Shown piece by piece: positions 19,053 through 33,378 of a DNA stretch of 64,000 nucleotides (position 1 is its first letter; every line of letters starts with the position of its first letter). The notes below the pieces were generated by a model. It had not been told where the DNA came from. It made no database searches and saw only the letters and a program-made list of their open reading frames with translations. The DNA lies in contig LGFI01000011.1 in the NCBI GenBank assembly GCA_001508155.1, positions 1-64,000 on the forward strand. Direction: 5' to 3'. The stretch comes from Acetothermia bacterium 64_32 (GTDB taxonomy: Bacteria > Bipolaricaulota > Bipolaricaulia > Bipolaricaulales > Bipolaricaulaceae). Position numbers and translations under genes: made by a program.

Positions 19053-19976
19053 TCATCCCACCGGGGTGAGCCAGCCGTGCCGGTCCGGGATTTTTCCCGT
19101 GACGATCCCGAAGAACTCCTCCTGGAGCCTTTTGGTTATGGGGCCGCGCCTTCCCGCCCCGATGGGGATCCCGTCCACCGACCGGATGGGGGTGATCTCG
19201 GCCGCCGTCCCGGTAAAGAAGAGCTCGTCCGCTATATAGAGCGCTTCCCTGGGGATGAGCTGCTCCCGCACCTCGTACCCAAGATCCCGGGCCAGCCGGA
19301 TGACACACGCCCGGGTCACCCCTCCCAGGATGGAGGCCCCCAAGGGCGGGGTGTAGATGATCCCGTCCCGGACCAGGAATACGTTCTCCCCGCTCCCCTC
19401 GCTCACGTACCCGAACACGTCCAGGGCGATCCCCTCGGTGAACCCCCGGTCCTTGGCCTCCATGGCCACGAGCTGGGAGTTGGTGTAATGCCCCCCCACC
19501 TTGGCCAGGGCGGGGTAGGTGTTGGGGGCCATCCGCGCCCAGCTCGCCACCCCCACATCCACCCCCCGCTCCAGGGCCTCCTCCCCCAGGTACGCCCCCC
19601 ACTGGAAGGTGATGATCGCAACCTCCACCGGGCAGTCCTCCCGGGGATCCAGGCTGAAGCTCCCTACCCCCCGGAACACGATGGGCCGGATGTAACAGGC
19701 CCGGTGGCCGTTGGCCTTCACGGTGGCCAGGATCGCCTCCCGCAACACATCCGGGGGATAGGGAACGGAGATGCGATACACCTTGCACGACTCGTAAAGC
19801 CGCCTGAGGTGCTGGTCCAGACAGAAGACCTGAGGCCCGGCCTCCGTCTTGTAGCAGCGGATCCCCTCGAACACGCTGGAGCCATAGTGCAGGGCATGGG
19901 CCGCCACGTGCACCTTCGCCTCATCCCAAGCTACCAGCTCCCCATTCAGCCAAATTTTCTCTGCCTTGAGCATCAT
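19053..19976 (-). CDS. ilvE: Branched-chain amino acid aminotransferase
   Basis: The 307-residue class IV PLP enzyme transaminates 2-oxoisocaproate, 2-oxoisovalerate and 3-methyl-2-oxovalerate to Leu, Val and Ile, the last step of the operon's pathway. Family motifs are clear: [27 protein letters not shown], the PLP lysine region [25 protein letters not shown] and [12 protein letters not shown]. The start ATG 19976 overlaps the leuD stop and follows GGAAGGAG. It is the last gene of the ten-gene operon. Confidence 0.95.
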
Positions 19977-20461
19977 GCCTCCTTCCCCCTCGCCCAGGGG
20001 ATGAGCCCCCCACAGGAGAGGATCTCGCGGATGAACTTCGGATAGGGGGCGATCGGGTATTCCTCCCCCCTGGTTAGGTTTTTGATAAGACCGGAATCCA
20101 AGTCCACCTTGATGACGTCCCCCTCCCGGATCCTCTTTGCCTTGGCGCACTCCACCACCGGGAGGCCCTGGTTGATGGCGTTGCGGAAGAAGATGCGGGC
20201 AAAGCTTTCCGCCACCACGCAGGCTATCCCGCAGCCCTTGATGGCCAGGGGGGCGTGCTCCCGGGAGGAGCCGCAGCCGAAGTTCCTCCCGGCCACCAGG
20301 ATGTCCCCGGGGGCCACCTTCCCCGCGAAGCTCGGGTCGAGGCCTGAAAGGCAGTGGCGCCCGAGCTCCTCCGGGGAGGTGGTGACAAGGAACCTAGCGG
20401 GGATGATGAGGTCGGTATCGATGTTGTCCCCTACCGCCCAGGCCCTGCCCTCGTAGATCAT
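19973..20461 (-). CDS. leuD: 3-isopropylmalate/citramalate dehydratase small subunit
   Basis: The 162-residue small subunit has the short form typical of archaeal-type and thermophile LeuD. It shows the swivelling-domain motifs [34 protein letters not shown] and [12 protein letters not shown]. With LeuC it isomerises 2-isopropylmalate to 3-isopropylmalate. Because CimA is present, the same pair probably also handles (R)-citramalate in isoleucine synthesis. Start and stop overlap neighbours by 4 bases. Confidence 0.93.
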
Positions 20462-21726
20462 CTTCCCCCCCTCAGCTCCTCCGGGGAGGCGATCCTCCCC
20501 AGGACCGCACTAGCCGCGGCCACGGCGGGGCTCGCCAGGTACACCTCGCTCTCCGGGTGCCCCATCCTGCCCCGGAAGTTGCGGTTGGTGGTGGACACGG
20601 CCCGCTCCCCGGCCGCCAGCACCCCCATGTGCCCCCCCAGGCACGGCCCGCAGGTGGGCGGGCTCACCACCGCCCCCGCCGCAAGGAAGGTCTCCACCAG
20701 GCCCTCCTCCACCGCCCGCCGGAAGAGCCGCTGGCTCCCCGGGATCACGATGCAGCGCACCTCGGGATGCACCTTGCGCCCCCGCAGGATCTGGGCGGCC
20801 ACAGATAGGTCCCGCCAGCGCCCGCCCGTGCAGCTTCCGATCACCACCTGATCGATGGGGATCTTTTCCAGCTCCGCCACTGGGACCACGTTCTCCGGGA
20901 GGTGAGGTCGGGCCACCAGGGGGGTGATCCCCCCCACATCTATCTCCAGCACCTGGTGATAGGCGGCATCCGGGGACGGGGCGGCGGGCTGAAAAGGCCG
21001 CACGGCCCGCCCGGAAACGTAGGAGAGCACCGCCTCGTCCGCCGGGAAAAGGCCACAGCTCGCCCCGGCCTCCACCGCCATGTTGGCTATCGCCAGCCGG
21101 TCGTCCAAGGGGAGGGCGGGGAGGAGGTCCCCGGCGAACTCCAGGGCACACCAGTTCGCCCCGGACACCCCGATCCTTCCGATGAGGTCCAGGATCAGGT
21201 CCTTCCCCATCACCCAAGGACGGAGCCTTCCCCTCCAGATCACCTTGATGGTGTGGGGGACCCTGAGCCAGGTCCTCCCGGTGGCCATGGCGTAGCCGAT
21301 GTCGGTGGAGCCAAGCCCGGTGGCGAAGGCGGAAAGCGCCCCGTAGGTACAGGTGTGGGAGTCCGCCCCCACGACCAGCTCCCCGGGGAGGACAAGGCCC
21401 TCCTCCGGGAGGAGCACGTGTTCAATGCCGCCCCTTCCCACCTCGAAGTAGTGGACGATCCCCTGCTCGCGGGAAAATTCGCGCATGATCCGGCACTGCT
21501 CGGCGCTCTTTACGTCCTTGTTTGGGGTGAAGTGGTCCGGGACGAGGTACACCCTGGCTGGGTCAAACACCTTTTGGGCGCCCAGGGCGCGGAAGGCCTG
21601 GATGGCCAAGGGGGCGGTGATGTCGTTTGCCAACACCCCGTCCACCTTGACCTCCACGAACTCTCCTGGGGCCACCTCCCTTTCGGCGTGCCGGGCGATG
21701 ATGGCCTCGGCCAGCGTCATCCCCAT
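20458..21726 (-). CDS. leuC: 3-isopropylmalate/citramalate dehydratase large subunit
   Basis: The 422-residue aconitase-family protein carries the [4Fe-4S] cluster. Cysteine ligands are seen in GSCTGGRWRD and SPPTCGPCLGGHMG, with VGADSHTCTYGALSAFATGLGSTD upstream. Its length (about 420) matches the shorter archaeal-type LeuC rather than the 460-residue E. coli form, consistent with a role in both leucine and citramalate routes. ATG 21726 has AAGGAG five bases upstream; ATG 21720 is an alternative. It overlaps the leuB end by 10 bases. Confidence 0.93.
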   Translation of the reverse strand: MGMTLAEAIIARHAEREVAPGEFVEVKVDGVLANDITAPLAIQAFRALGAQKVFDPARVYLVPDHFTPNKDVKSAEQCRIMREFSREQGIVHYFEVGRGGIEHVLLPEEGLVLPGELVVGADSHTCTYGALSAFATGLGSTDIGYAMATGRTWLRVPHTIKVIWRGRLRPWVMGKDLILDLIGRIGVSGANWCALEFAGDLLPALPLDDRLAIANMAVEAGASCGLFPADEAVLSYVSGRAVRPFQPAAPSPDAAYHQVLEIDVGGITPLVARPHLPENVVPVAELEKIPIDQVVIGSCTGGRWRDLSVAAQILRGRKVHPEVRCIVIPGSQRLFRRAVEEGLVETFLAAGAVVSPPTCGPCLGGHMGVLAAGERAVSTTNRNFRGRMGHPESEVYLASPAVAAASAVLGRIASPEELRGGR

Positions 21727-22802
21727 GTCAGCTCCTTTAGCCTTGTAAGGAGGGCTCGGCCCAGCTCCTCTGTCCTTACCGGGGGCCTATCGCCGGGGAG
21801 GTCCGGGGTGCGCAGGCCCTCGGCCAAGACCCTTCGGACCGCCTCCTCCACCAAGGCCGCCTCCTCCTCCCTCCCCAGGTGGTAGCGGAGGAGCATGGCC
21901 CCGGAGAGCACCGCCCCGATGGGGTTGGCGATGCCTTTCCCCGCGATGTCCGGGGCCGAGCCGTGCACCGGCTCCGCCAGGGCCACCCCCTCCCCCAGGT
22001 TCAGGGAGGGGGCCATCCCCAGCCCCCCGGCCCATACGCTGGCCTCATCGGACAGGATGTCGCCGAACAGGTTCGGGGTGAGCACGACATCGAACCGCTC
22101 CGGCGACTTGGCCAGCCACATGGCCATGGCATCTACCAGCATCTCCTCGACTTCCACCCCCGGGTAGTCGGCCGCCGCGGAAAAGGCGGCCCCCCGGAAC
22201 AGCCCGCAGGTCTTGGGAAGGACGTTCGCCTTGTGCACCACTGTGACCTTCCTTCGCCTCTTCTGGGCGAGCCTGAAGGCGAGGTGGGCGATCCTCTCCG
22301 AGGCGGCCCGGGTGATGATCCTCTCTGCCACGGCCACCTCCCCATCGCTCCTTTCCTTCCCTACGTACAGGCCCTCCGTGTTCTCCCGCACGATGAGGAG
22401 GTCCACCCCCTGGCGGAAGCCCGGGATGGGGGGGGAGGCGGCCGGCCTGAGGTTGGCGAACAGGTTAAGCCTTTGTCGCAGGGTGATGATGACCGCCCGG
22501 TATCCGGGAGGGGGCTCAGGGGGGGCGGAGATGGCCCCAAACAGGATCCCATCCGCCCTTTCGATGACCTCCCAGGTCTCCTCGGGGATGGGCACCCCCC
22601 GGCGGAGGAAGCACTCCCAGCCCGCCTCCGCGCTGATGAACTCCAGGTCCGGGGCGGTCGCCTGCAGCACCTCCACCGCCACCGGGGTCACCTCGTGGCC
22701 GATCCCATCCCCCTCGATCACGCAGATCCTCCCGTGACGCGTGACGCGTGACGGTTGACTGGGGTTTTCGTGACGGATCACGGGTGACGGATCACGGATC
22801 AC
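21717..22802 (-). CDS. leuB: 3-isopropylmalate dehydrogenase with repeat-encoded N-terminus
   Basis: This NAD-dependent beta-decarboxylating dehydrogenase shows [34 protein letters not shown], the [31 protein letters not shown] metal/substrate block and [18 protein letters not shown]. It oxidises 3-isopropylmalate and probably also erythro-3-methylmalate on the citramalate route. The only plausible start is GTG 22802, with AAAGGAGG six bases upstream and a 4-base overlap with the leuA stop. That gives an unusual extension of about 24 residues before the normal N-terminus, encoded by the 7-bp tandem repeats at 22734-22804. No other start codon exists close to the conserved region except GTG 22781, also in the repeat. 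Confidence 0.9.
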
Positions 22803-22804
22803 GG
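22734..22804. repeat. 7-bp tandem repeat array at the leuA-leuB junction
   Basis: Plus-strand units are GTGACGC x2 and GTGACGG (22734-22754), a 15-base spacer, then GTGACGG, ATCACGG, GTGACGG, ATCACGG, ATCACGG (22770-22804). Seen from the coding strand, the array starts at the leuA CCG-TGA stop and runs into leuB. A related array lies at 60567-60594. Confidence 0.9.
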
Positions 22805-24331
22805 GTTTCCTCCTTTCGCTGCGAGCAGCTTGTTCAGGGCGTTGAGGTACGCCTTGGCGCTGGCCACCACGATGTCGGTGGAGGCCCCCTGGCCGCTGAA
22901 GTGGCGGGGGCGGCCATTCGGCCCCGCGAGCTCGGGCGCCTCCACGGTGATGGTCACCTCGCCGATGGCGTCAAGCCCTCCGGTGATGGCCTTGATGGAG
23001 AACTCAATGAGCTTGGGGGACTCCCCCACGATGCGGTTTATGGCCCGGTAGACGGCGTCCACCGGCCCGGTGCCGTGGTCGGCGTCCACCAGTTCCTCCC
23101 CACTTGGGCCCCGCAATCGCACCGTGGCCGTGGGGATGCCCCGGTCGCCGCACACCACCTGCACCTGCTCGAGGTGGTAGATCTCCGGCGGCCGGTAAAG
23201 TTCGTCGGCCACGATGGCCTCCAGGTCCGCCTCGGTAACCTCCTTCTTTTCGGCAAGCTCCTTGAAACGCGCGAACACCCTCCCCAGCTCCTCCTCCGAA
23301 AGCCGCCAGCCAAGCCCCTGGAGCCGCTCCTTGAGGGCGTGCCGGCCGGAGAGTTTCCCCAGGACGAGCTTGCTTTCTGCAAGGCCGATCGTCTTTGGGT
23401 CGATGATCTCGTACGTCCTCCGCTCCTTCAGCACCCCGTCCTGGTGGACCCCGGACTCGTGGGCGAAGGCGTTGGCCCCCACGATGGCCTTGTTGGGGGG
23501 GACCGGGACCCCGGTGATGGTGCTCACCATGCGGCTGGTGCGGGCGATGTTTTCGGTCTTCACCCCGCAGGAAAGGCCGAGGAGGTCCCGCCGCACAAGG
23601 AGGGCCATCACGATCTCCTCCAGGGCGGCGTTCCCGGCCCGCTCCCCCAGCCCGTTCACCGTGCACTCCACCTGCCTGGCCCCGGCCGCCACCCCGGCCA
23701 GGGAGTTGGCCACCGCAAGCCCTAGGTCATCGTGGCAGTGCACCGAGATGGTCGCCCGCTCGATCCCCGGGACGTTCTTTCTGATCCCCCGGATCAGGGA
23801 AGCGAACTCCTCCGGCAGGGCATAGCCCACCGTGTCCGGGATGTTCACCGTGCTCGCCCCGGCCTCGATGGCTGCCTCCAGGATCTCGTAGAGGAAGCCC
23901 GGCTCGGTGCGGCTCGCGTCCTCCGGGGAGAACTCCACGTCCTGACACAGGGAGCTGGCGAGGGCCACCATCTCCCGGGTACGGGCGAGCACCTCCTCCC
24001 GGGTCATCCTGAGCTTGTGCTCAAGGTGGATCCTGGAGGTGGCGATGAAAACGTGAATCCGGGGTTTTTCCGCGTAGCGGACGGCCTCCCAGGCGGCGCG
24101 GATGTCCTCCTCCCTGGCCCGGGCCAGGGCACAGATCCTGGGGCCCTCCACCTCCAGGGCGATGCGCCGTACCGCCTCAAGGTCCCCCCGGGAGGCGGCC
24201 GGGAACCCCGCCTCGATCACATCCACCCCCAGGCGCGCAAGTTGTCTGGCAAGCTGCAGCTTCTCCTCCCCGGTGAGGGAAACCCCCGGGGTCTGCTCCC
24301 CGTCCCTGAGTGTGGTGTCGAAGATCAGCAC
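22799..24331 (-). CDS. leuA: 2-isopropylmalate synthase
   Basis: The 510-residue enzyme condenses 2-oxoisovalerate with acetyl-CoA. The N-terminal TIM barrel shows [16 protein letters not shown], the [15 protein letters not shown] metal-ligand region and [16 protein letters not shown]-terminal regulatory domain ([33 protein letters not shown]) binds leucine in the family. The start is awkward: GTG 24331 gives only one residue before LIFDTT and lies 25 bases from the good AAAAGGAGGTGG at 24354-24365. No closer in-frame start is visible. The stop TGA lies inside the 7-bp repeat array. Confidence 0.92.
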
Positions 24332-24363
24332 CCGATCGCAAGTCCCACCTAAACCACCTCCTT

Positions 24364-25920
24364 TTAGTCGTTCACAAGCGGGAACTCCAAGCTGTCGGCC
24401 AGGGCCTGCCAGCTGGCCTCGATGATGTTGGGGGAGCTGCCCACGGTGGCCCACTGGCGCCTCCCGTCCGAGGCCAGGATCAGGACCCGCACGGTGGCCT
24501 CCGTCCCCGCCTGGCCGTTGAGGATGCGCACCTTGTAGTCGGTGAGCCGTACGTGGGCGAGCTGGGGCCAGAAGGGGATCAAGGCTTTTCTTATGGCTCG
24601 GTCCAGGGCGTTCACCGGGCCGTTCCCCTCGGCGGCGGTGTGGATGACCTCCTCCCCCACCTTTACCTTCACCGTGGCCTCCGACAGGATCTCCTTCCCG
24701 GTGCGTTTTTCCACCAGCACCAGGAAATCCAGGAGCTCAAAGGGGGGGCGCCAGTCCGGCCTGGCCCGCCGGATGAGAAGGGAAAGGGAGCCTTCCGCCG
24801 CCTCGAACTGAAAGCCCTTTTTCTCAAGGGCCTTCACCTCCTCTAGCAGGCGGGCGGCCTCCTCCCGGGACAGGGCCTCCCCGAGCTCCCTCGCCTTGAC
24901 GAGGATGCTCGTCCTGCCCGAGAGCTCGGAGACGAGCACCCGGTCGGAGTTCCCCACCAGCTCCGGGTCGATGTGCCGATAGCTCCGGGGGGCCTTGGCC
25001 AGGGCGTCGACGTGGATCCCCCCCTTGTGGGCAAAGGCAGCCCGCCCCACATAGGGCTGATAGGGGTTGGGGGCTAGGTTGGCAAGTTCTGCTACAAAAT
25101 AGGATAGATGAGTAAGCTCCCTCAGCTTTTCTTTCGGAAGCACCTCCAGCCCCAGCTTGAGCTGGAGGTTGGGGATGACCGAGCACAGGTTGGCGTTGCC
25201 GCAGCGCTCGCCGTAGCCGTTTATGGTGCCTTGGACAAGGGACGCCCCGGCCTGGACCGCAACCAGGGTGTTTGCCACCGCAAGCTCGCAGTCGTTGTGG
25301 GCGTGGATGCCCAAGGACACATAGGGAAACTCCCTTCGCACTTCTCGGACGACCTTTTCCACCTGCCAGGGGAGGGTCCCGCCGTTTGTGTCGCACAAGA
25401 CGAGCCAGTCCGCCCCGGCGTCGGCCGCCACTTCGAGGGTCGCCAGGGCATATTCCGGATCCTCGGAGAAGCCGTCGAAGAAGTGTTCTGCGTCGAAGAT
25501 CACCTCTTTTTCCCTTTCCTTCAGGAAGGCCACCGAGTCGGCGATCATGCGCAGGTTCTCCTTGCGGGAGGTGCGCAGGACCTGGTCCACGTGCAGGGTC
25601 CAGGACTTCCCCACCACGGCCACCGCCGGGGTGTCGGCGGCAAGGAGGGCGGAAAGACAGGGGTCCTTTTCGGGGGGGAGCCCGGCCCGGCGGGTGCTCC
25701 CGAAGGCGACCAGCTTGGCCTCCCCCAGGTCCAGGTCGCGGGCGCGGGCGAAAAGCTCCGTGTCCTTGGGGTTGGCCCCAGGCCATCCCCCCTCGATGTA
25801 GTGCACCCCCAGCTCCGAAAGCCGCCGGGCGATCCGGAGCTTGTCCGCAAGAGAAAAGGAAACCCCCTCCCCTTGGGCCCCGTCCCGCAGGGTGGTGTCG
25901 TAGAGCTTTACCCCCTTCAG
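24364..25920 (-). CDS. cimA: (R)-citramalate synthase, CTG start
   Basis: The 518-residue homologue of LeuA belongs to the bacterial citramalate synthase group: [81 protein letters not shown] and [13 protein letters not shown]. It makes citramalate from pyruvate and acetyl-CoA, bypassing threonine deaminase. No ATG, GTG or TTG precedes the conserved start; CTG 25920 does, with AAGGAGG six bases upstream and 1 base after the ilvC stop. Starting at the next GTG (25806) would delete the first active-site motif. So CTG is the likely start. Confidence 0.92.
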
Positions 25921-25921
25921 C

Positions 25922-26923
<1,002 letters not shown>

Positions 26924-26931
26924 CCTTCCTC

Positions 26932-27441
26932 CTATTTGAACACGGTGGTCTTGTACTCCTTGGCCTGGGCGCCCCGGACCATCGCCACCCGGCCGGTGCG
27001 CACCACCTCCTCCACCCCGAACGGCTCAAGCAAGGTGATGAGCCCGTTCACCTTCTCCTCCGGCCCGGTGACCTCGATCATCAGGGAGTTGTGGTCCACG
27101 TCCACCACCCTGGCCCGGAACAGGTCAACGATCTGGGTGATCTCCCCCCGGCGGGCCGGGGGGGCCTTCACCCGGATGAGGGCCAGCTCCCGGATCACAG
27201 CAGCCCTTCCGGTCACGTCCACCACCTCGATCACGTTCACCAGCTTCTCCAGCTGCTTTTTCACCTGGTCGATCACCCGGTCGTCCCCCGTCACCACCAG
27301 GGTCATGCGGGAGATGCCCGGCCTTTCGGAGTGCCCCACCGCCAGGGACTCGATGTTGTACCGGCGCCTGCGGAACAGGCTCACCATGCGGTTGAGCACC
27401 CCGGGCTTGTCCTCCACCATCGCCACCAGGGTGTGCCTCAT
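26932..27441 (-). CDS. ilvN: Acetolactate synthase regulatory (small) subunit
   Basis: The 169-residue protein has an N-terminal ACT domain ([34 protein letters not shown]) and the C-terminal half typical of long IlvN/IlvH forms. The ACT domain binds valine for feedback control of the catalytic subunit. ATG 27441 overlaps the ilvB stop by 4 bases. It is encoded in the usual order after ilvB. Confidence 0.94.
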
Positions 27442-29123
27442 CCCTTCCTCCTTGCCTGTGCGGGGAAGATCATGTCCGAAAGGCTTTTCCCCGGTGCCAC
27501 CATGGGGAACACGTTCTCCTCCTTCTCCACCAAGAAATCGATGAGGATGGGGCCCCGGTGTTCCAGGGCCCGGGAGATGGCCCCCTCCACCTCCTGGGGG
27601 CGGCGCACGGTGAGGCCGGGGATCCCGTAAGCGGAAGCGAGGCGGGAAAAGTCGGGCCCGGAAAGCGGGGTGGCCGCATAATTGCGGGAGAAGAAAAGCT
27701 CCTGCCACTGCCGTACCATCCCCAGGTAGCCGTTATTGATGACGGCGATCTTTATGGGAAGGTTTTCTTGGACCACGGTGGCGAGTTCCTGAACCGTCAT
27801 CTGAAGCCCCCCGTCCCCGGTCACCACCCATACGAGCTCCTCCGGCCGGCCGATCTGGGCCCCGATGGCCGCCGGGAGGGAATAGCCCATGGTCCCAAGG
27901 CCCCCGGAGGTGATGAGGGTGGGCCGTTCGTGCCGGTAGTACTGGGCCTCCCACATCTGGTTCTGGCCCACGTCGGAGACCACCAGCGCCCTCCCCTCGG
28001 TGGCCTGCCAGATGGCGTGGATCACCTTTTGGGGGCGGAGGTGGGACTGATCACGCAAGGGCTCCTCCCAGTCGAACTCTTCCCTCCAAGGGTCGATCTC
28101 CTTCCACCAGCCAGTACGGGAAGCCGGCTCCACCAAAGGAAGCAGGGCGGAAAGGAGCTCCTTTGCATCCCCGAGGAGGGGGAGGTCCACCCGCACGTTC
28201 TTCCCTATCTCCGCCGGGTCGATGTCAAGGTGCACGATCGCGGCCCCTGGGGCGAAGGCCTTTGGGTCCCCGGTGACCCGGTCGTCGAACCTCATCCCCA
28301 CGGCGAAGAGCAGGTCGCAGGCCTGGATGGCCCGGTTGGCCTGGGGGGTGCCGTGCATCCCGGCCATGCCCAAAGAGAGGGGGTGGGAGCCGGGGATGGC
28401 CCCGATCCCAAGCAAGGTGGTGGCCACCGGGATGTCCGCCCGCTCGGCCAAGGCCCGGAGCTCGGCGCACGCCCCGGAGAGGATCACCCCGTGCCCGGCC
28501 AGGATCAGGGGCCGCTGGGCCTTCTGGATGAGCTCCGCAGCCTTTCGCAGTGCCTCCTCCGGGACTGGGTAGCCCTCCCGGTAGCCCGGAAGTTTCACCT
28601 CTTCGGGGTAGGAAAACTCCTCCCGCGCGGCCTGGACGTCTTTGGCGATGTCGACCAGCACCGGCCCGGGCCTGCCGGTCCGGGCCAGGTAGAACGCCTC
28701 CCGGATGGTGGGGGCCAGGTCCCCGACCTCGGTGACCAGGTAATTGTGCTTGGTCACGGGCAGGGTGCTCCCGGTGATGTCCGTCTCCTGGAAGGCGTCG
28801 GTACCGATGACCGGGGTGGGGACCTGTCCGGTGATGGCCACAAGCGGCACCGAGTCCATGTAGGCGGTGGCAAGGCCGGTGACCAGGTTGGTGGCCCCGG
28901 GGCCGGAGGTGGCCAGGCACACCCCCACCTTCCCGGTGGCACGGGCGTAACCGTCGGCCGCGTGGGCCGCCCCCTGCTCGTGCCGCGTGAGCACGAACCG
29001 CACCGGATATCGGGGGAGGGCGTCGGTGATGTGGATCACTGCCCCGCCGGGGACCCCGAAGGCCACCTCCACCCCCTCCCGGACGAGGGATTCCCACAGG
29101 ATCTCCGCCCCGGTGAGCTTCAT
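27438..29123 (-). CDS. ilvB: Acetolactate synthase catalytic (large) subunit
   Basis: The 561-residue thiamine diphosphate enzyme makes acetolactate from pyruvate and acetohydroxybutyrate from pyruvate plus 2-oxobutyrate. Visible motifs are [54 protein letters not shown] with the catalytic Glu, and the ThDP fold [39 protein letters not shown]. It overlaps ilvD by 4 bases. Confidence 0.95.
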
Positions 29124-30784
29124 CCTTCCTCCTTTTCAAGCACCGCCCCGCCCGCCGCCGAGCCCACCTGTTCCGCGTAGCGCGCAAGGTACCCCCGGGG
29201 GGGCCGAGGCCTCCAGGGGGGCAGGGCCGCAAGCCGCCGGGCCAGCTCCCCCTCGGGCACGAGGAGCTCAAGCCTCTTTTGGGGGATATCGATTTCGATC
29301 TCATCGCCATCCTGGACGGCGGCGATGGGGCCACGGGCGGCCGCCTCCGGGGCCACATGGCCGATCGCTGCCCCCCGCGTGGCCCCGGAGAAGCGCCCGT
29401 CGGTGATCAGGGCCACCCGGTCGTCCATCCCCATCCCGGTGAGGAGGGAGGTGGGGGTGAGCATCTCCGGCATCCCAGGGCCGCCCTTGGGGCCCTCGTA
29501 GCGGATCACGATCACCTCCCCTTCCTGGAACTCCCCAGCAAGGAGGGCACGGGTGGCCTCCTCTTCGGACTCAAAGACCCTGGCCGGGCCCCGGTGCCGG
29601 AGCATCCTCTCTGCCACCGCGCCCCTTTTCACCACCGCCCCTTGTGGGGCCAGGCTCCCAAACAGGACGGCGATCCCCCCTTGAGGGGAATGAGGGTCGC
29701 TCGCCGGGCGGATCACGTCCCGGGCCCGGACCTGGCAAAGGGAGTCCCCAAGCGGCCGGCCGGTCACCGTGAGGGCCTCGAGGTGGAGGAGGCCTGCGGC
29801 CCCAAGCTCCCCTAAGACGGCGGGGATCCCCCCGGCCCGGTGCAGGTCCTCCATGTGATGGGGGCCGGCCGGGGATAGGCGACAAAGCTGGGGGGTGCGA
29901 CCGCTGATCTCGTTCACCAACGACAAAGGAAGGTGGAGCCCAAGCTCCCCAGCGATGGCCATAAGGTGCAAGATCGAGTTCGTGGACCCCCCCAGGGCTA
30001 CATCCAGGGAAAAGGCGTTCTCGAACGCCTCCGGGGTGAGGATGCTGGAAGGCCGCAGCCCCTCCGCGAGGAGCTCCACTGCCCTGGCGCCGGCCCGCTT
30101 GGCCAGGCGGACTCTATCGGCTGAGGTGGCCGGGGCGGTGCCGTTTCCCGGGAGGGCCAGCCCCAGGGCCTCGGCCAGGCACCCCATGGTGTTGGCGGTG
30201 AACATGCCGGCACAGGAACCGCACCCTGGGCAGGCGGAGAGCTCAAGCTCGGAGAGCTCCTCCGGGCTGAGCTCCCCCTTGGCCGCCCGGCCCACCGCGG
30301 CGAAGACGCTCGCCAGGTCCACCGGCTCCCCCTGGAAGTCCCCGGCGAGCATCGGCCCCCCGCTTACGAACACGGCCGGGATGTCCAGGCGGGCGGCGGC
30401 CATAAGCATCCCGGGCACGATCTTGTCGCAGCTTGCCAGCAAAACCAGGGCGTCGAACGCGTGCGCCCGCGCCAGGGCCTCCACCGAGTCGGCCACAAGC
30501 TCCCGGCTGGGCAGGGAGTATCGCATCCCCAGGTGGTTCATGGCGATCCCGTCGCAGATGGCCGGGGTGTGGCACACGAACGGCACCCCGCCCGCCATCC
30601 TCACCCCGTCGCAAACGGCCTGGGAAAGCTCCGAAAGGTGCTTGTGTCCGGGGACGATGTCGCTTTGGGCGGTGATCACCCCCACGAAAGGACGGGCGAG
30701 CTCCTCGGGCGTAAGCCCCAGGGCGAAAAGGAGCGCCCGGTGTGGAGCCCGCTCCAACCCTTCCTTCACCACACTGCTTCCCAT
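29120..30784 (-). CDS. ilvD: Dihydroxy-acid dehydratase
   Basis: The 554-residue Fe-S dehydratase yields 2-oxoisovalerate and 3-methyl-2-oxovalerate. Cluster and substrate motifs include [54 protein letters not shown] and [24 protein letters not shown] 30784 has AAAGGAGAGGG directly upstream, downstream of the attenuator hairpin at 30798-30828. It is the first structural gene of the ilv-leu operon. Confidence 0.95.
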
Positions 30785-30797
30785 CCCTCTCCTTTCC

Positions 30798-30828
30798 AAA
30801 AAAGGACCAGGGCCTCTCGGCCCTGGTC
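30798..30828 (-). terminator. Attenuator terminator before ilvD
   Basis: A perfect 10-bp GC stem (30805-30814 with 30819-30828), 4-base loop and, on the minus strand, six consecutive T (30798-30803) lie 14 bases before the ilvD start. A strong intrinsic terminator in front of the first gene makes sense only if read-through is regulated. Confidence 0.88.
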
Positions 30829-30832
30829 GCAC

Positions 30833-30869
30833 CCGGGTTATGTAGCCCTTTTAGGCTACACTAACCCGG
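30833..30869 (-). promoter_or_regulatory. Attenuator pause hairpin with alternative antiterminator pairing
   Basis: Strand 1 and 2 form a long stem: CCGGGTTA/TAACCCGG (30833-30840 with 30862-30869) and 7 bp above it, with one bulged base. Its 5' strand overlaps the Pro-Gly-stop end of the leader peptide. The freed 3' strand, CCCGGGT, could pair with ACCAGGG of the terminator stem (6 of 7 positions, 3-base loop), which would block the terminator. A ribosome stalled on the upstream Leu/Val/Ile codons would cover strand 1 and favour this. Confidence 0.7.
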
Positions 30870-30890
30870 AATCCTAATAACTAGAAGCAT
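30861..30890 (-). CDS. ilv-leu leader (attenuation) peptide MLLVIRIPG
   Basis: A 9-codon frame ATG-CTT-CTA-GTT-ATT-AGG-ATT-CCG-GGT-TAG encodes Leu-Leu-Val-Ile-Arg-Ile, so five of nine residues are the operon's end products. It is followed at once by the pause hairpin and terminator, the arrangement of enterobacterial ilv/leu attenuators. No clear Shine-Dalgarno site precedes it; CCCCTTCGG does not match. The codons and position are too specific to be casual. Confidence 0.75.
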   Translation of the reverse strand: MLLVIRIPG

Positions 30891-30978
30891 AAAACCGAAG
30901 GGGAGCGGAGCGCCCGAGCGGAAGCAGCCAAACCCCTTGTCGCTCACTTCTCTCCCCCTTTCGGCTGGTGCTGCTTTT

Positions 30979-31007
30979 TACTTACGCAATTCAGGCGGTC
31001 AAGTCAA
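30979..31007 (-). promoter_or_regulatory. Promoter of the ilv-leu operon
   Basis: Minus-strand TTGACT (31002-31007), 17 bases, TAAGTA (30979-30984). An overlapping TTGACC (30997-31002) paired with TAAAAA is an alternative. The transcript would have a leader of about 190 bases containing the peptide and attenuator; an AAGGGG/CCCCTT-closed stem-loop lies in the first part. Confidence 0.55.
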
Positions 31008-31062
31008 GGGGAACTGCCGCGGCTTTCCCTTTGGCGGTAAAATCCCAGCTAAAGGAGTCGTG

Positions 31063-33378
31063 ATGCCAGAAAAGGTTTTGGAAAAGGAAGAGCGTGTGGT
31101 GGGGCAGGGGGCAAGGCGACTGGATGCCGAAGCCAAGGTGAGGGGAGAGGCCCGCTACGCAGACGACCTTTCCTTCCCAGGGATGCTCCATGTAAGGGCG
31201 ATCCGCTCCGAAAAGCCACATGCCCGTATCCTGTGCCTAGACCTCTCGCGGGTGGAGGCCCATCCACAGGTGGTCTGCATCGTTACCCCGGAGGACATCC
31301 CGGGGGAGAACATCGTGCCCATCATCTACCGGGACATGCCCCTCCTGGCCGAGGACGTGGTCCGCTATGTGGGCGAGCCGGTGGCATTGATCGGCGCCAC
31401 CTCCAGGGAGGCAGCCGAGGAGGCAGCTGCCCTGGCGAAGATCGCCTACGAAGAACTTCCGGCCGTGTTCGACCCACTGGAGGCCGCAGGCCCCGAGGCC
31501 CCGCAGGTGGCCGTGCCCGAGGCGGCAGAAGAAGGGAACGTCTTTAACCACATGGTGATCAGGAAGGGGGACGTCTCGGAGGGCTTTGCCCAGGCGGACG
31601 TGGTCGTGGAGGGGGAATACCGCGTAGGCTACCAGGAACACGCCTACCTTGAGCCCCAGGGGGTGATCGCCGTCCCCGAGGAGGGGGGGATCGCCATCTA
31701 CGGGACCATGCAGTGTCCTTATTACGTGCAGAACGCGGTGGCAAACGTCCTGGGGCTTCCCCTATCCAAGGTGAGGGTGGTGCAAGTCGCAACCGGAGGG
31801 GGCTTTGGGGGGAAGGAGGACGTGCCCTCCCACCTGGCGGCCATGGCGGCCGTGGTGGCTTGGAAGTCCGGCCGGCCGGCGAAATTGGTCTACGATCGGG
31901 CAGAGGACATGGCCACCACCTCCAAGCGCCACCCTGGCCTTATCCGTTACCGGACCGGGGCCAGGCGCGATGGAACCTTGGTCGCCGTGGAGGTGGAGTT
32001 TTACTACAACGCCGGGGCCTATCAGACCCTGTCCTCGGCGGTCCTGTGGCGGGGGCTGGTGCACGCCGCCGGGCCCTACCGGATCCCGCACGTGAAGGTG
32101 GACGCGTATTCGGTGGCCACCAACACCGTCCCCTGCGGGGCCTTCCGGGGGTTCGGCTCGCCGCAAGTGATCTTCGCCCACGAATCCCAGATGGACGAGC
32201 TCGCCGGAAGGCTCGGGATGGATCCGCTTGAGCTACGGCGGAGGAACGCCCTGCGGGTGGGGGATGAGACCGCTACCGGGCAGCTCCTCACCGAGTCGGT
32301 AGGGCTTCCTCAGGCCATCGAGCGGGCGGCCGAGCTCTCCCGGTGGGAAGAACTCAAGGCAGAGGTGGAGGAGTTCAACCGAAGGGAGCCGTTTAAGCGG
32401 CGGGGGATTGGGGTGTCCACGGTGATGTACGGGGTAGGGATGGGGGCCAAGGCCCCGTCCCTGGACAAGGCCGGGGCATATGTGAAGCTCGAGGCGGATG
32501 GATCGGTCACGGTGGCGGTGGGGAACACGGAGATGGGCCAGGGCGCGATCACGGTCTTGGCCCAGATCGCCGCCGAGGCCTTGGGGGCTAGCCTATTCGA
32601 TGTTCAGCTTGCCCCGGTGGACACCTCACGGGTTCCCGACTCCGGCCCCACCGTGGCCTCCCGCACCACCACCGTGGCCGGGATGGCCGTGCTGGATGCG
32701 GCAAGGAAACTCCGGGCCCGGGTGGAGAGCGCCGCCCGGGAGCTCTTTTCCTGTGATGAGGTGGAGCTTTCCGGTTCACGGGTTTGGCCGGCCAGGGCCC
32801 CGGAAAAGGCCGTGCCCCTGGCGGAGGTGGCCCGCTGGATGTGGGCCCACAACTGGGACATGGGGGCCACGGGCTGGGCGGAAGGGGCGCCGGTTGATTG
32901 GGACCCCAAGACCGGCCAGGGGAAGGCCTACTTCGTCTACTCCTATGCCTGCCACATCGCCGAGGTGGAGGTGGATCTCCTCACCGGGGAGGCATGCGTG
33001 CGGCGGTTCTGGGCGGTACACGACTCGGGCAAGATCGTAAACCCGGAGACCGCCCGGGGGCAGGTGGCCGGCGGGATCGCCCAGGGGATCGGTTACGCCC
33101 TCATGGAGGAGCTTAGAAGCGAAGGCGGCCGCCTCGTCGCCCCTTCCTTCACCGCCTACCACATACCTACGACCATGGACGTCCCCGAGGGGTACGTGAT
33201 CGACTTCGTGGAGGCCCCCTACTCCGGCGGGCCGTTTGGGGCCAAGGGGTTGGGGGAGGTACCGCTTATGGCCTCGCACGCCGCGGTGGCGAACGCGATA
33301 TCCGCGGCCACGAGAGGAAGGCTGAGGGAGTACCCGGCGATCCCCGAGCGGGTGCTGGCGCTTGTGGAAGGGAAGTAG
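31063..33378 (+). CDS. Xanthine dehydrogenase-family molybdenum-binding subunit
   Basis: The 771-residue protein is the large (molybdopterin) subunit of the xanthine dehydrogenase/aldehyde oxidase/CO dehydrogenase family. Motifs include GEARYADDLSFPGMLHVRAIRS, EGEYRVGYQEHAYLEPQGVIA, the cofactor loops GGGFGGKED, FRGFGSPQ and GQGAITVLAQIAAEALG, and the catalytic-Glu region GAKGLGEVPL near the C-terminus. The CO dehydrogenase active-site Cys loop is not seen, so a purine or aldehyde substrate is likelier. ATG 31063 follows AAAGGAG; TAAAAT at 31038 may be its -10. The FAD and 2Fe-2S subunits are not encoded beside it, which is unusual. An MFS gene follows directly. Confidence 0.88.
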   Translation: MPEKVLEKEERVVGQGARRLDAEAKVRGEARYADDLSFPGMLHVRAIRSEKPHARILCLDLSRVEAHPQVVCIVTPEDIPGENIVPIIYRDMPLLAEDVVRYVGEPVALIGATSREAAEEAAALAKIAYEELPAVFDPLEAAGPEAPQVAVPEAAEEGNVFNHMVIRKGDVSEGFAQADVVVEGEYRVGYQEHAYLEPQGVIAVPEEGGIAIYGTMQCPYYVQNAVANVLGLPLSKVRVVQVATGGGFGGKEDVPSHLAAMAAVVAWKSGRPAKLVYDRAEDMATTSKRHPGLIRYRTGARRDGTLVAVEVEFYYNAGAYQTLSSAVLWRGLVHAAGPYRIPHVKVDAYSVATNTVPCGAFRGFGSPQVIFAHESQMDELAGRLGMDPLELRRRNALRVGDETATGQLLTESVGLPQAIERAAELSRWEELKAEVEEFNRREPFKRRGIGVSTVMYGVGMGAKAPSLDKAGAYVKLEADGSVTVAVGNTEMGQGAITVLAQIAAEALGASLFDVQLAPVDTSRVPDSGPTVASRTTTVAGMAVLDAARKLRARVESAARELFSCDEVELSGSRVWPARAPEKAVPLAEVARWMWAHNWDMGATGWAEGAPVDWDPKTGQGKAYFVYSYACHIAEVEVDLLTGEACVRRFWAVHDSGKIVNPETARGQVAGGIAQGIGYALMEELRSEGGRLVAPSFTAYHIPTTMDVPEGYVIDFVEAPYSGGPFGAKGLGEVPLMASHAAVANAISAATRGRLREYPAIPERVLALVEGK

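Follow-up and report, generated by a model that had tools for sequence, protein, structure and literature searches.

Leader peptides that control branched-chain amino acid (BCAA) synthesis are known from Proteobacteria and Actinobacteria (PMC1262725) and from Staphylococcus (PMC5794164), and the ilvB-OMG motif is known from various phyla (PMC10272879). As of 2010, leader-peptide systems had been demonstrated only in Proteobacteria and Actinobacteria, together with the finding in Firmicutes reported in the same paper (PMC2965389). In Staphylococcus aureus, the ilvD gene of an ilv-leu operon is directly preceded by a 26-codon Ile/Leu leader with a ribosome-binding site and a terminator 52 nt past the stop codon; a T-box was considered there first, and the antiterminator proposed frees a motif pairing with the poly-U (PMC5794164). 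The Corynebacterium ilvB-II and ilvB-OMG motifs combine a BCAA-rich uORF with a terminator before an ilv operon (PMC10272879). In the ilvB leaders of Streptomyces and Mycobacterium, runs of Ile/Val/Leu codons lie near terminator hairpins (PMC1262725). Mutating candidate control codons of the Streptomyces coelicolor ilvB leader was without effect, and the unsettled mechanism there is a warning for the case described here (PMC1262725). Of the papers listed by a literature search on attenuation or leader peptides in Bipolaricaulota, which covered subscription papers thinly and is therefore weak evidence, none mentions this phylum.

The DNA analyzed here (the window) is a stretch of 64,000 nucleotides from Acetothermia bacterium 64_32, a member of this phylum. 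A preliminary description, made from the sequence alone, had proposed that a Leu/Val/Ile leader peptide controls a terminator before ilvD, at the head of a ten-gene ilv-leu operon. The operon was confirmed on the minus strand by NCBIfam matches to all ten genes, in the order ilvD-ilvB-ilvN-ilvC-cimA-leuA-leuB-leuC-leuD-ilvE. The first structural gene, ilvD (29123..30784; TIGR00110, E 6.6e-223), starts with an ATG at 30784 behind the Shine-Dalgarno (SD) sequence GGAAAGGAG (30797-30789). The remaining nine genes lie within 19053..29123, which are the outer limits of the rest of the operon, several true starts being inside the listed ORFs. The core of the proposal gained support from orthologous leaders in six other genomes, and the leader is quite probably a ribosome-mediated transcription attenuator that responds to the charging state of the tRNAs for Leu, Val, and Ile.

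As in the E. coli ilvL-ilvXGMEDA and leuL-leuABCD systems, the window has a leader with BCAA codons, a 1:2 hairpin, and, ahead of the first structural gene, a terminator with a U-tract; the leader peptides have no sequence similarity. Its position directly before ilvD is that of the S. aureus leader; no antiterminator of the S. aureus kind is proposed here, the two being compared by description. The frame lengths of the window's orthologs are divisible by three, as are those of ilvB-II and ilvB-OMG, which differ in lying before ilvB and in having a shorter peptide and another structure (PMC10272879). In the broad sense of a predicted uORF and a premature terminator before ilv/leu genes, both conserved in relatives, the locus belongs, as judged from sequence, to BCAA leader-peptide attenuation.

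The window's genome (1.81 Mb, 33 contigs) was searched together with 99 others of its class. Of these 100 genomes, 24 contain ilvD; the sole other genome of the window's genus does not. Within the window's family, orthologous leaders upstream of ilvD were of two types with the same order of parts and different sequences. Type T1 comprises the window, G003, and G014, whose complete leader was pieced together from two overlapping contigs (L110 and L005), and type T2 comprises four leaders from one genus (G019, G031, G013, and G028). Pairwise DNA identity over the whole leader is 65–70% within T1 and 70–84% within T2. All seven leaders keep the start codon, the frame (28–31 codons), the terminal BCAA codons, a hairpin (H1) at the stop codon, and a terminator ending in a U-tract.

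The frame read in the preliminary description, ATG CTT CTA GTT ATT AGG ATT CCG GGT TAG, is present at 30890-30861 on the minus strand, and its control codons CTT CTA GTT ATT (AGG) ATT, for Leu Leu Val Ile (Arg) Ile, occupy 30870..30887. An alignment of leaders from related genomes, which that description had suggested, showed these residues to be identical among the T1 orthologs except for an Arg/Gly exchange, with two of three nucleotide changes synonymous. The nine-codon peptide MLLVIRIPG did not survive the comparison. An ATG does exist at 30890 in the window, where it has no SD; G003 has GCG at this place and G014 has GCA, and the ATG was rejected as a start because it is not conserved. 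The start is instead predicted at a GTG (30947), 19 codons upstream and conserved in place with the sequence GGGGGAG (30958-30952), so that initiation at the ATG is very improbable. The supposed absence of a leader SD, which had seemed odd, is thereby explained away. A GTG behind a good SD is found in all three T1 leaders (GGGGGAG in the window, AGAGGAGG in G003, AGAGGAGGG in G014). The predicted window frame (30861..30947, minus strand) has 28 codons and encodes MSDKGFGCFRSGAPLPFGFMLLVIRIPG; the peptides of G003 and G014 are MSANKIAVWMHFLARSSIGRALLVIRIPG and MNAASIAERKCVGAYSPSGFALLVIGIPG, of 29 codons each. The leader thus offers a translatable frame, as predicted from its sequence, with a start, a ribosome-binding site, and control codons for the operon's products.

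Conservation among the T1 peptides is confined to the C-terminal end, LLVI[R/G]IPG. The T2 peptides end in FISVIVLIS, LSVILIS, FSVVLVLIS, and LSVVLVLIS, and changes near these ends are synonymous, within Leu/Val/Ile, or whole-codon insertions and deletions. The T2 start codon lies 6–10 nt downstream of a TATATA/TATATG box, so near that the message may be almost leaderless. The window peptide by itself is not significantly enriched, with Leu, Val, or Ile at 5 of its last 12 positions (P = 0.14, given the composition of the operon); the case rests on the orthologs. A reading of the conserved PG or IS end as an arrest peptide was set aside as the less likely one, since the Pro-Gly codons double as the H1 5' arm and the Leu/Val/Ile codons give a simpler account of the conservation.

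The 196-nt window leader folds at -93.8 kcal/mol, compared with -71.3 ± 4.5 for shuffled sequences (z -5.0), and three hairpins were folded in each of the seven leaders: H0, H1, and the terminator. The long hairpin whose 5' strand overlaps the end of the frame is present as first described. Its 5' arm (strand 1, CCGGGTTAGTGTAGCC, 30854..30869, minus strand) includes the TAG stop codon of the leader (30863-30861) and pairs with the 3' arm (strand 2, GGCTACATAACCCGG, 30833..30847, minus strand), giving -27.0 kcal/mol in the window. H1 ranges from -24 to -31 kcal/mol in the seven leaders and starts at the stop codon or in its immediate vicinity, and the models place such a 1:2 hairpin beside the control codons in every one. 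In all seven, only a few bases separate H1 from the terminator on its 3' side. In the window, its 5' arm (strand 3, GACCAGGGCC, 30819..30828, minus strand) and its 3' arm with the following C and six T (GGCCCTGGTC, 30798..30814, minus strand) make up the sequence GACCAGGGCC-GAGA-GGCCCTGGTC-C-TTTTTT at 30828-30798. This is the perfect 10-bp stem with six T just before the ilvD SD that had been noted from the sequence, and it would place an intrinsic terminator between the leader and the first structural gene. In G014, a G to A change in the terminator 5' arm is matched by a paired change in its own 3' arm.

The antiterminator and the promoter held up only in part. The proposed antiterminator strand, CCCGGGT in the outer part of the H1 3' arm (30837-30831, minus strand), can pair with ACCAGGG of the terminator (6 of 7 pairs, one G.A). 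The pairing is weak, however, at -6.8 kcal/mol in the window and -6.2 in G003, and it is lost in G014, where strand 2 shows no compensating change while the terminator stem does; 2:3 pairing is thus possible, without support from covariation. In T2 it amounts to -8.2 kcal/mol and is invariant, hence uninformative. For comparison, the value is -13.4 kcal/mol in an unrelated BCAA leader of the class (L138) and -15.6 kcal/mol in E. coli trp. As for the putative promoter, a -35 box TTGACT (31007-31002) is present and is separated by a 17-nt spacer from a poor -10 box, TAAGTA (30984-30979). A scan with consensus promoters detected none at 30979..31007, although a TTGAC[T/G] box with a 17–18-nt spacer recurs in all seven leaders. 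A divergent gene resembling xanthine dehydrogenase/aldehyde oxidase lies on the plus strand, and its listed ORF (window positions 30937-33378) overlaps the leader. A start with an SD near 31062 would leave about 280 bases common to both promoters.

Ribosome stalling was modelled by placing a ribosome at each codon and reading out the upstream pairing of the terminator 5' arm; the E. coli leaders leu, ilv, thr, and trp served for comparison. These gave the expected picture: pairing was about 0.67–0.83 over most of their control codons and dropped to 0.04 or less with the ribosome at the stop codon. The window gave about 0.2–0.55 over the control codons, the antiterminator appearing at just the last few of them, and still 0.43–0.55 with the ribosome at the stop codon, so that the modelled antiterminator stayed on there, unlike in the E. 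coli leaders. In the T2 leaders, pairing did not rise until the last Leu/Ile codons, and it was still up at the stop codon. Compared with the E. coli ilv and leu leaders, whose antiterminator is strong at the control codons and vanishes at the stop, the window has a weak one that persists. The classical enterobacterial logic that had been proposed for this locus applies in part, to the predicted peptide, its codons, H1, and the terminator, but not to the modelled off-state at the stop codon; the antiterminator itself is weak and of doubtful conservation.

The third conserved hairpin, H0, was absent from the preliminary description. Its 5' arm (CCGAAAGGGGGAG, 30952..30964, minus strand) holds the leader SD GGGGGAG, and an equivalent arm is found in all seven leaders; its 3' arm (CTCCCCTTCGG, 30895..30905, minus strand) lies just 5' of the control codons. 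The 5' arm corresponds to the leader SD in T1 and to the start-codon region in T2, and the 3' arm directly precedes the control codons in T1 and overlaps them in T2. When duplex energies were compared with dinucleotide shuffles, H0 of the window alone was not significant (P = 0.33), and the other T1 leaders gave P = 0.10 and 0.002; the T2 leaders gave P = 0.002, 0.018, 0.066, and 0.010. When arms were permuted, the cognate pairing came out best in both types, among 6 permutations in T1 and among 24 in T2. The H0 helix covaries, with changes on both sides, read by hand from the arms, at five T1 positions and at two T2 positions, the latter representing few independent events owing to the relatedness of the T2 sequences. 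Elsewhere in the class, H0 was unsupported by the shuffle test in the leaders of families f2 and f8 and in the trp leaders, and it was significant in one of four f5 leaders. The corresponding pairing of the start region with the late leader in E. coli gave P = 0.024 for leu and 0.13 for ilv, which is not clear. With H0 open, the T1 leaders showed long-range pairing between the H0 3' arm and the 5' arm of the terminator. It was set aside because it took a different form in each sequence and because a ribosome stalled at the control codons covers or adjoins the H0 3' arm.

These parts suggest how the leader may work. A ribosome would load at GTG 30947 while the leader emerges. With charged tRNAs in ample supply, the 28-codon peptide would be finished and the ribosome would leave, allowing H1 to form over the stop codon; with H1 formed, the terminator would form and RNA polymerase would halt before ilvD. 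Upon a stall on the last Leu/Val/Ile codons, the ribosome would occupy the outer part of the H1 5' arm and free the outer 3' arm, ACCCGGGT, which could pair with the terminator 5' arm and so allow transcription to continue into the ten genes. Once the sequence before the control codons is made, H0 would bury the ribosome-binding site of the peptide, probably allowing none but the first ribosome to translate the leader; each transcript would then be judged once. Quick release at the stop codon, letting H1 re-form, would be a workable design. A stronger form of this idea is double gating, in which H0 shuts the ribosome-binding site or start, only the pioneer ribosome reads the sensor, and release at the stop codon decides the outcome in place of a strong antiterminator; this can be offered only tentatively.

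How far the switch depends on strands 2 and 3 is the point on which the readings differ most. The peptide may be translated and the terminator regulated without competition between these strands, the antiterminator being a chance complementarity of GC-rich arms; readthrough might then depend on a ribosome trailing the polymerase closely, or on a protein or ligand that binds H1. The weak, uncompensated T1 pairing, the uninformative T2 pairing, the missing off-state in the stall model, and the Streptomyces ilvB precedent (PMC1262725) are all consistent with such a mechanism. However, the freed outer part of strand 2 lies a few bases 5' of the terminator and is partly complementary to it in both types, and a stall at the last Ile codon raised 2:3 pairing in all four T2 leaders. 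Regulation without this competition is accordingly a real possibility, though a doubtful one.

Two further readings do without the peptide as a sensor. A constitutive or leaky terminator behind a structured leader with a fortuitous frame would fit the chance-level composition of the window peptide (P = 0.14) and the poorly formed E. coli-like antiterminator. It is improbable, since the frame, the start with its SD, the length, and the BCAA residues have been kept despite 16–35% divergence, and BCAA and Trp leaders recur at the matching operons across the class. T-boxes serve in this way in many Firmicutes, and the leader is long enough to contain one or a metabolite riboswitch. Yet the T-box covariance model (RF00230) had no match in the window or in any of 40 relatives, and the same search was positive in five control genomes, Bacillus subtilis among them. 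Against the Rfam 15 families, a tRNA was the only match in the window, with none to a leader or riboswitch family; the leader had no match at the gathering score, and a relaxed threshold added nothing credible. On the leader strand, the highest of the weak scores, 17.5 bits for a molybdenum riboswitch whose gathering score is 36, is probably a chance match. Control by a T-box or riboswitch is therefore extremely unlikely. The best reading is that the leader works like a classical switch with an added conserved hairpin over its own ribosome-binding site, a compact variant of a well-known type of mechanism.

Other leaders in the class are of different designs. Unrelated BCAA leaders of the type MVKKFSVVSVLLVLVITLVIIGGGP (family f2) precede ilvB in five genomes; in L133, L138, L140, L141, and L143 the stop codon lies 92–96 bases before the ilvB match, and the BCAA leader MSINPSRVLRTSALLSVLVIIVVLLFGGP at L145 was grouped with them. 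Their antiterminator, GUUGGACG:CGUCCAAC, is stronger than that of the window in the single leader folded (L138, the value given above), and modelled pairing was here also not fully gone at the stop codon. In families f5 and f8, leaders ending LVVILPL or SIILPR precede ilvD, from which they are separated by a small cysteine-rich ORF. At L008-L012, such leaders of 35–47 codons lie about 370 bases upstream of ilvD, with the stop codon within GCCCCTTTAGGGGC or a similar sequence and no clear intrinsic terminator 3' of it. The ORF before ilvD there has about 88 residues, is zinc-ribbon-like, and had no Pfam match above the cut-off. The mode of control at these loci is possibly a different one. Upstream of trpE, 29-codon Trp leaders (..ISWPWLN, ..IFWPWFN) were seen at L119, L120, L121, and L127 (f5), with a hairpin and a U-tract terminator before trpE; no description of this trp attenuator was found in the literature.

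A stricter BCAA scan of 75 regions upstream of ilvD from other phyla gave three matches, and its reversed control also gave three. Chance frames thus occur at a low rate, and the argument rests on conservation, not on the scan. The BCAA-rich short frames NIILGIIIIILGLLGLSVLVG (L083) and NIVILRGLILLSLIVLIIG (L090) upstream of ilvD, from a Bacteroidetes and a Calditrichaceae genome bin, are leads only, given the equal number of control matches.

In the window's family, two single-contig genomes of one genus (1.7 and 1.3 Mb) have neither ilvD nor ilvB, and Candidatus Bipolaricaulis strain Ran1, with a closed genome, is reported to be limited in amino-acid synthesis (PMC6092417). A broken ilvD remnant, with the N-terminal part gone and a frame change, was seen in G002 (L016, contig C26), which is congeneric with the operon-bearing G014. 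This remnant and the presence of ilvD in just 24 of 100 genomes suggest that BCAA synthesis has been lost repeatedly in the class. The leader described here would extend leader-peptide attenuation to a little-studied, uncultivated class, and H0 provides a testable idea for limiting leader translation to one ribosome per transcript. With several unrelated BCAA leader designs alongside Trp leaders, the class offers a natural experiment in the origin of such switches.
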